Source: Bacteroidetes bacterium 37-13 (GTDB lineage Bacteria; Bacteroidota; Bacteroidia; Chitinophagales; LD1). From it: a DNA stretch of 64,000 nt. Below the pieces are notes generated by a model, which did not search any database, was not told the origin of the DNA, and worked only from the letters and a program-made list of their open reading frames with translations. The stretch spans positions 186,958 through 250,957 of the forward strand of contig MKTC01000016.1 in the NCBI GenBank assembly GCA_001897535.1. The letters run 5' to 3'. This document shows positions 27,417-29,203 of this stretch, piece after piece; position 1 is the first letter of the stretch; each line of letters starts with the position of its first letter. The translations under genes were made by a program, and so were the position numbers.

Positions 27417-28076
27417 CTAATTTGTATCCGGCTCTAATCCAAATTTCTTTTGAAGTACTTTTATTATTGGATTGATTTCTAACAAGCGTTTCAGCATATC
27501 TTCATCGGTATAATAAATTGCAGTAGTTGCTGAATTTTCTTTGTCCACCGAAATTTTTACTTCTAAATTTACTCCGGTGTGTGCGCTCAGAAATTTCTCT
27601 AATGAAATTGCTACTTCATTTAGCTTTTCAAATTGCGCTTCGGCTTGAACGGTTACAAGAATTTTGCTTTCGTGCATTACAAGTTCCGGAGAAAAAATTG
27701 AAAATAATGCTTTGGCACCACGCTTAACTTCGGGAAGTTGCTCAGCAAATTTTTTCCAAAGCAATAAAATATTGTCTTGGTTTAGTTCCAGAATTTCTAC
27801 TGGTGTAGCAATATATTTTTCAGACTCAGTTTCTTCTACTTTTTGAACCTGCTTCTTAATATTTTCTACATTATCTGAAGCATTAAAAACCTTGCCTGTT
27901 CTGCGAATTACAGTAGCTGCACTTTTAGGTTCCGGTTTAGAATTACTTACAGCAGGTGCGTTTCCGATGGCCGGCTTTTCACTCACTTTAGGTTCGGGTT
28001 TTGGTGCAGTACTTAGCTTCGTCAAGTCTGCTAATTCTGCAGCTTCATCTTCTTCAGAAATGTTTAGTTCACCATT
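27417..28076 (-). CDS. dnaX: DNA polymerase III tau-specific C-terminal part, read after frameshift
   Basis: This segment, in the frame one base shifted from the gamma frame, encodes about 219 residues. It starts in an acidic stretch, passes a Pro/Lys-rich linker (PKPEPKVSEKPA) and ends in a folded part (about 120-219: LLWKKFAEQLPEVKRG, then EVKISVDK). That layout matches the C-terminal tau region that binds the polymerase core. No good start codon lies in the right place, so it is most likely reached by slipping in the A run at 28075-28084. Combined with gamma residues 1-376 it would give a tau of about 595 residues. Confidence 0.8.
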   Translation of the reverse strand, partial: NGELNISEEDEAAELADLTKLSTAPKPEPKVSEKPAIGNAPAVSNSKPEPKSAATVIRRTGKVFNASDNVENIKKQVQKVEETESEKYIATPVEILELNQDNILLLWKKFAEQLPEVKRGAKALFSIFSPELVMHESKILVTVQAEAQFEKLNEVAISLEKFLSAHTGVNLEVKISVDKENSATTAIYYTDEDMLKRLLEINPIIKVLQKKFGLEPDTN

Positions 28077-29203
28077 TTTTTTTTGTCGGTAGAAAAACCA
28101 ACTTCACTCAAACGATTTACAAAGCACATTTTTACTAATGCCAACTCCACCGTGAGCCGTTTGTTTTTGCTCATTCTATAGCGAACATCACATTCGTTGC
28201 CAAGTGCTAAGCAGTTGATTAAAAAATTTCCATTGGCAACTAAAGCTTGCTGTAAATATTTTTCTTTTAGTGTAGAACTAAGTTCTAAAATATTAGCTGT
28301 TGCTTCACTTTTACAGAACAATAAATTTCTGAAATGTTCGCACAAACCAATCATAAAATCATCGCCTTCAAATCCCTTTTGCAATATTTGATGAAAGAGC
28401 GTGAGCAAGTCCGATACGTTTTCTGCCAAAAGAGCATCTGTTACTTTAAAAAAATAGTCGTAATCGAGCACATTCAGGTTTTCAAGCACTTCGGAATATG
28501 CTAATTTTCCTCCGCCAAAACTCACCAAACGGTCGAGCATGCTAAGTGCATCGCGCATACCGCCATCTGCTTTTTGTGAAATAATGTGCAGCGTATCTTC
28601 ATCGAATGGAATATTTTCTTGCACACAAATTTCGCGCAAATGCTTTACGATAGTTTCAATAGAAATTCTACGAAAATCAAACACCTGGCAACGCGAAAGT
28701 ATGGTTGGAAGTATCTTGTGCTTTTCGGTAGTGGCAAGTATAAATTTGCAATAAGCAGGTGGCTCTTCTAAGGTTTTTAAAAACGCATTAAAAGCTGCTT
28801 GCGAAAGCATGTGAACCTCATCTATAATATAGATTTTAAACGTTCCACTTTGTGGCGGAAAACGAACTTGGTTCACCAACTCGCGAATATCTTCAACAGA
28901 GTTATTCGATGCTGCATCTAATTCATAAATATTGAATGAACTGTTTTGCGCAAACGAAGTACAAGAATGGCAAGTACCGCAAGCCTCAAAATCGGCAGTA
29001 GGTGTTTCGCAGTTAATAGTTTTTGCAAGAATACGTGCAGCCGTAGTTTTGCCCACACCACGCGGACCGCAAAACAAAAACGCATGAGCTAACTTGCCGC
29101 TCTTTATTGCATTGCGCAGCGTATTGCTCACGTGCTCTTGCCCCATCATTTCCGAAAAAACTTGAGGGCGATATTTTCTTGCACTAACTAAAAAATCTGC
29201 CAT
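28064..29203 (-). CDS. dnaX: DNA polymerase III clamp-loader subunit gamma (short dnaX product)
   Basis: The 379-residue product has the AAA+ clamp-loader core: Walker A GPRGVGKTT (about 45-53), a zinc-binding Cys cluster (C-x8-C-x2-C type, CGTCHSC), Walker B region IIDEVHMLS, SRC (sensor 1/arginine region: LSRCQVFDF) and the lid and collar helices. It stops three codons after a run of ten A, soon after the collar domain, much as E. coli gamma does. The ATG at 29203 opens the standard MADFLVSARKYRP. An upstream in-frame codon was rejected. A consensus promoter lies seven bases before the ATG. Confidence 0.93.
   Translation of the reverse strand: MADFLVSARKYRPQVFSEMMGQEHVSNTLRNAIKSGKLAHAFLFCGPRGVGKTTAARILAKTINCETPTADFEACGTCHSCTSFAQNSSFNIYELDAASNNSVEDIRELVNQVRFPPQSGTFKIYIIDEVHMLSQAAFNAFLKTLEEPPAYCKFILATTEKHKILPTILSRCQVFDFRRISIETIVKHLREICVQENIPFDEDTLHIISQKADGGMRDALSMLDRLVSFGGGKLAYSEVLENLNVLDYDYFFKVTDALLAENVSDLLTLFHQILQKGFEGDDFMIGLCEHFRNLLFCKSEATANILELSSTLKEKYLQQALVANGNFLINCLALGNECDVRYRMSKNKRLTVELALVKMCFVNRLSEVGFSTDKKKMVN
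28075..28084 (-). other. A10 slip site in dnaX (gamma/tau switch)
   Basis: Ten consecutive A on the coding strand separate the gamma and tau frames. Slippage by the RNA polymerase adding one A, or a -1 ribosomal shift on A-AAA-AAA, would both open the tau frame. No strong stem-loop lies just downstream (only a 5-bp TTCTG/CAGAA pairing), which favours the transcriptional type known from Thermus dnaX. A sequencing or assembly error in the homopolymer is the alternative. Confidence 0.6.

Follow-up and report, generated by a model that had tools for sequence, protein, structure and literature searches.

The window, a stretch of 64,000 nucleotides from contig MKTC01000016.1 of Bacteroidetes bacterium 37-13, carries on its minus strand a dnaX gene that is broken at a run of ten A (Table 1). 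The gamma frame (29203..28064) begins with ATG at 29203, reads ...GFSTDKKKMVN at its C-terminal end, and stops three codons past the run, which appears as ten T on the plus strand and supplies AAA at codons 374-376. The translation of the tau frame (28079..27417) opens with KNGELNISEEDEAAELADLTK. Both halves match NCBIfam PRK14971 (614 positions), one at 1-364 (E = 1.9e-194) and the other at 432-612 (E = 6.7e-15), and neither alone reaches the whole-protein cut-off of that model. The match to Pfam PF12169 (domain III) stops at residue 365, nine codons before the one at which the run begins; with the AAA+, lid and domain III matches ending there, gamma ends directly behind the collar. An earlier note on this DNA had described a gamma frame ending three codons after A10 and past the collar, followed by a tau frame one base out of register without a start codon of its own, and both descriptions proved accurate. 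Counted from the run, the tau frame offers no start codon before a TTG 20 codons on and no ATG before one 136 codons on.

Table 1 Features of the dnaX locus in the window
Feature	Position	Strand	Remarks
dnaX gamma frame	28064..29203	-	379 aa: AAA+ ATPase, lid, domain III/collar, then KKKMVN
A10 run, proposed slippage site	28075..28084	-	first A is base 1 of codon 374
tau-specific C-terminal frame	27417..28079	-	220 residues to stop; one base off the gamma register
TAA ending gamma in the unslipped frame	28064..28066	-	
TGA closing the third frame (two extra A or one fewer)	28069..28071	-	two codons past the run

A single dnaX scores above the family cut-off in this genome; six other matches, all below the cut-off, were considered as a second copy and rejected. 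The nearest named loci (71-75% identity to gamma) belong to metagenome-assembled genomes (MAGs) called Bacteroidetes, Sphingobacteriales or Chitinophagales. A search against Rfam gave two hits on the other strand, far under their gathering scores, which we judged to be due to chance. The splitting of dnaX at A10 in the window is confirmed as a real observation.

We compared dnaX in 235 genomes of the phylum, one per species: 62 from the same order (58 of 60 genomes read plus four added, with the weak matches G029 and G035 left out), 112 from the rest of the class (ten genomes added; G068 and G125, which had no match, and G072, with a partial one, left out), and 61 from the rest of the phylum (read from the 87 with a match among 89 genomes). 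A run of A9 to A11 occupies the same place in 188 of the 235 loci (same order: 59/62; rest of class: 96/112; rest of phylum: 33/61), whereas A8 occurs there in none; A11 accounts for 12 loci. The run is absent from 16 of the 112 class loci and 28 of the 61 outgroup loci, where the length stated is that of the longest A run in the searched interval, and L042 (G033), a gene cut by a contig end, was scored as run-less. When species are grouped by family, 77 of 96 groups include at least one run-bearing member (21/21, 45/55 and 11/20 in the three sets). The earlier note had named an A run in the dnaX of relatives as the comparison to make, and its presence in most of them favours a built-in stutter over a sequencing error.

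The frame analysis covered 186 genes, L130 and L195 being omitted since contig ends cut these run-bearing genes. Outside the site, the 186 genes (327,760 nt) contain 34 runs of A8 and six of A9 or longer. The run is not tied to one codon phase (37, 92 and 57 genes for the three phases), even though 69% of lysine codons elsewhere are AAA, so that no fixed peptide motif is being kept; its distance from the start codon also varies, and a fixed lysine motif was ruled out as the cause.

In the whole genome of 3.1 Mb, 13 pattern hits correspond to 12 runs of at least ten A, as one run is an A11. With the other 11 read, and with an open frame of 90 codons or more taken as a gene, dnaX and truB are the only two genes that have such a run well in their interior. 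The truB run is an in-frame A10 near the start of the gene (L367, about 2350) and, unrelated to dnaX, it is not conserved: a run of A9 or longer is found in 3 of 30 truB loci of relatives with the genome itself counted, as against the same-order proportion given above for dnaX. Runs of A9 are commoner, with 88 in the genome, and 14 of the 30 that were read sit in an open frame of at least 120 codons on either strand. One glycosyltransferase-like open frame (L361, labelled by eye from its first residues) has an A10 seven codons ahead of its stop.

Tau is in frame in 131 of the 186 genes, requires one extra A in 51, and requires two extra or one fewer in four (L038, L124, L171 and L226). Both layouts occur inside a single family group in 10 of the 96 groups; a FastTree phylogeny of the gamma part requires a minimum of 24 switches of the default product in Bacteroidia and 30 in all, counts that are rough because 82 of the 232 inner branches are weakly supported. 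In 181 of the 186 genes, no more than 45 nt separate the run from a stop in each non-tau frame; when the codons after the run are shuffled, this holds for a mean of 42.8% (highest of 50 shuffles: 50.5%). The median distance to the stop is 4 nt in the nearer non-tau frame (shuffled: 21) and 11 nt in the other (shuffled: 38); in the window TAA and TGA close the two frames within two to three codons. Outside the 235 genomes, to which the named loci (Algoriphagus, the Chitinophaga pinensis MAG and others) do not belong, split dnaX genes are also found in named isolates (Algoriphagus, L074, L075 and L108). A MAG labelled Chitinophaga pinensis (L073) has a split dnaX with A10 in which tau needs two extra or one fewer A.

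The proportion of run-bearing genes that look broken (55 of 186, or 30%) is a warning for annotation, as such genes risk being labelled as pseudogenes or as short proteins. The same appearance would arise in the window if an A11 had been read as A10 in this assembly, or if the gene were a pseudogene, with no switch at all. Homopolymers are prone to error, A11 is known among the relatives, and a neighbour from the same genus (G002) has A10 with tau in frame, so that an error of one base would produce the split. A miscount of this kind could have happened here, as the earlier note had cautioned when it wrote that a homopolymer error would look the same. Split genes are present in many relatives, isolates among the named ones, and the window's gene is the only dnaX of its genome. 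With A11 the run would still be slippery and the two other frames would still be closed, and A10 and A11 are both within the range of lengths seen in relatives. The tau part of the split genes is, moreover, under purifying selection, with dN/dS between 0.03 and 0.28 in eight of ten split-gene pairs (the other two being saturated) and 0.24 between the window and its in-frame neighbour G002; these values are rough because synonymous distances are large (0.9 to 3.1), but they imply that split genes make use of the tau part. We consider an error or a decayed gene very improbable, and regard the earlier note's finding as correct and as more than an accident of a single assembly.

It is also conceivable that gamma functions alone, or that re-initiation yields the C-terminal part as a protein of its own. 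The gamma frame does end cleanly behind the collar, and the TTG in the tau frame could serve as a start. Yet none of the 55 split genes has a start codon at the junction (the first start of any kind in the tau frame comes 7 to 119 codons after the beginning of the run, and the first ATG at least 26 codons after it), the tau parts are conserved, and split and fused states interchange among relatives. With no start codon at the junction and purifying selection on tau, re-initiation and pseudogene formation were both judged unlikely, and gamma alone or a separately started C-terminal protein is scarcely credible.

We propose instead, with a probability of roughly three in four, that one dnaX gene yields two clamp-loader subunits through programmed slippage of RNA polymerase on A10. 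RNA polymerase would slip on the run and leave a mixture of mRNAs differing in their number of A. The unslipped mRNA would be translated into gamma, with 379 aa comprising the ATPase and the collar, and an mRNA that has gained one A, or has otherwise come back into register, into tau, with about 595 aa and the C-terminal part added. In E. coli, this C-terminal part of tau contacts the polymerase and the helicase. As stops lie just past the run in both non-tau frames, all other mRNAs would be expected to yield a clean gamma. The run, the frames, the stops, their conservation and the selection on the tau part can be read directly from the sequences; a slip at the level of transcription, the production and use of both proteins, and the ratio between them are inferred.

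The main competitor is a ribosomal -1 frameshift, in which lysine tRNAs would slip back on A_AAA_AAA within the run, so that the mRNA is uniform and some ribosomes reach tau. Any run of A9 or longer contains such a heptamer, A_AAA_AAA is in frame in every run of at least nine, and 51 of the 55 split genes need the -1 direction, all of which counts against slippage in transcription. The only lysine tRNA found in the genome has the anticodon UUU, although a tRNA may have been missed, as 150 of 265 candidates were scored (32 matches, 30 of them read with ARAGORN; the other two, of 88 and 84 nt, have lengths of the Ser/Leu/Tyr type). Four run-less relatives have a heptamer of this kind at the same place, and PMC5009743 treats reversed dnaX genes, such as that of a Chlorobium, as ribosomal candidates. 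A ribosomal shift would, however, be served by seven A in one phase, and the run is nine to eleven long in all loci that have it and never eight; it would not require the third frame to be closed, which it is; and it would not reach tau in the four split genes that need the opposite direction.

The stimulatory signals of a ribosomal shift were also looked for. E. coli dnaX undergoes a -1 ribosomal frameshift at A_AAA_AAG, with a Shine-Dalgarno sequence upstream and a stem-loop downstream. In the window A_AAA_AAG was not found at the run, which is followed by T and offers A_AAA_AAA only, and the 24 nt ahead of the run hold no Shine-Dalgarno-like AGGAG or GGAG, which speaks against a ribosomal shift, as does the weak folding described below. 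Across the 186 genes, upstream Shine-Dalgarno-like matches of at least 5 nt are present in 6.5% (control: 7.8%), and those of at least 4 nt are commoner than in the control (47.8% vs. 26.9%). Folding downstream of the window's run is weak (-7.1 kcal/mol, vs. -22.1 kcal/mol in E. coli), in line with the remark in the earlier note that the lack of a strong stem-loop favours slippage. The remark carries little weight, as the fold z-score gives only -0.28 for the known stem-loop stimulator of E. coli; since it misses that structure, we did not use the z-score as evidence (186 genes, downstream: mean z = -0.41 vs. -0.25 in controls, z < -2 in 7.5% vs. 4.3%; the 60 nt upstream of the run: mean z = -0.56, z < -2 in 11.3%).

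Transcriptional slippage is preferred on three grounds: in this sample no run at the site is eight long and the shortest have nine A, both non-tau frames are closed, and four split genes lie beyond the reach of a -1 shift. The preference voiced in the earlier note is supported; a ribosomal shift in the window is unlikely by comparison. Slippage would explain the long run, its freedom of phase, the closure of both frames, and the genes of the other direction. The lower limit of nine is not absolute, since PMC3711429 names two Chlorobium cases below it, with eight and seven A. Selection against coding runs of A or T from nine nucleotides is reported for many genomes in PMC1088944, which contains hints that eight suffice in some.

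The closest known system is dnaX of Thermus thermophilus, in which a stretch of nine A is the site of transcriptional slippage (Larsen et al. 2000, cited through PMC1088944 and PMC5009743). The window resembles it in having at least nine A in dnaX, stops nearby in both other frames, and gamma and tau assigned to one gene; it differs in that tau is the unslipped frame in Thermus and gamma the unslipped frame in the window, the Thermus-type layout being that of the 131 relatives with tau in frame. Thermus has two lysine tRNAs according to PMC5009743, and the UUU one alone was found here. From E. coli, whose dnaX switches between its two products at this same position, the window differs in its longer run, the T that follows, the sequence upstream, and the reversed default product. 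In Caulobacter, gamma is also a product of the tau gene, released by proteolysis with no change of frame (PMC5009743); the gamma of the window has its own stop. The same source states that, at an efficiency near 50%, one base change can reverse the roles of the products, and calls the importance of the gamma subunit controversial.

The earlier note knew of no description of such a switch in this group, but split dnaX genes with A10 have been in print since 2013, and the kind is therefore already known. The set of Antonov et al. (2013; PMC3711429) comprises 17 split dnaX genes in 12 genera; nine have A10, and slippage was put forward as the mechanism. Their main text names three Chlorobi species, and the species with A10 are given only in the supplement. 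Those genes share with the window a gamma ORF that comes first and a tau reached by a -1 frame change at a poly-A junction. The present analysis traces the run across 235 species, and 131 of the genes covered keep tau in frame. No phylum-wide survey of the site was found in the literature by title or start of abstract, subscription journals being mostly outside that coverage. As far as the literature was searched, the conservation on the scale of the phylum, the repeated swap of the default product, and the possible substitution of a ribosomal heptamer for the run appear to be new.

For Bacteroidota as a whole, we lean, with somewhat less assurance than for the window, towards slippage on at least nine A as the old and usual route to gamma and tau, with the default product swapping almost freely and a few lineages having a heptamer in place of the run. 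Slippage would mix the frames so strongly that single-base changes beside the run suffice to swap the default. That the site is kept in most sampled members of the phylum through such swaps is comparative evidence that both products are selected. The published cases with seven and eight A, together with the background of heptamers described below, weigh against the strictest form of this claim.

Four of the 47 run-less loci have an A_AAA_AAN heptamer at codons 367-382, where relatives have the run: A_AAA_AAA in L011 (the window's own genus) and L061, A_AAA_AAC in L134, and A_AAA_AAG in L140, which also has GGAGG a little upstream. The -1 frame stops one to four codons on in each. A ribosomal heptamer may have replaced the run in these four. 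The same scan, over about 150 codons, also found A_AAA_AAN in L160, L198, L214 and L259, where it sits farther along, and in L176, where no -1 stop is close; several outgroup loci have other slippery heptamers with close -1 stops. Because of this background, replacement is a lead from four cases and not a proof.

Apart from these four, the run-less class loci gave no clear signal. Twelve of them (L141, L147, L154, L156, L160, L169, L170, L172, L173, L176, L177 and L213) have neither A9 nor a heptamer at the usual place with a near -1 stop, and are candidates for the loss of gamma or for another route to it. Lineages in which the signal is missing, or in which a heptamer takes its place, constitute a natural experiment on the purpose of gamma. 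One class genome of 0.5 Mb in a single contig (G083) has a DnaX frame of about 353 aa without A9 (L214), perhaps encoding gamma only. In Pseudoalteromonas, an A9 near codon 397 is present in 5 of 15 dnaX loci (L090, L091, L092, L102 and L106), with the two other frames closing within 5-11 to 14 codons, and in the remaining ten loci every A run there is shorter than eight; this A9 is possibly a separate gain of the same device.
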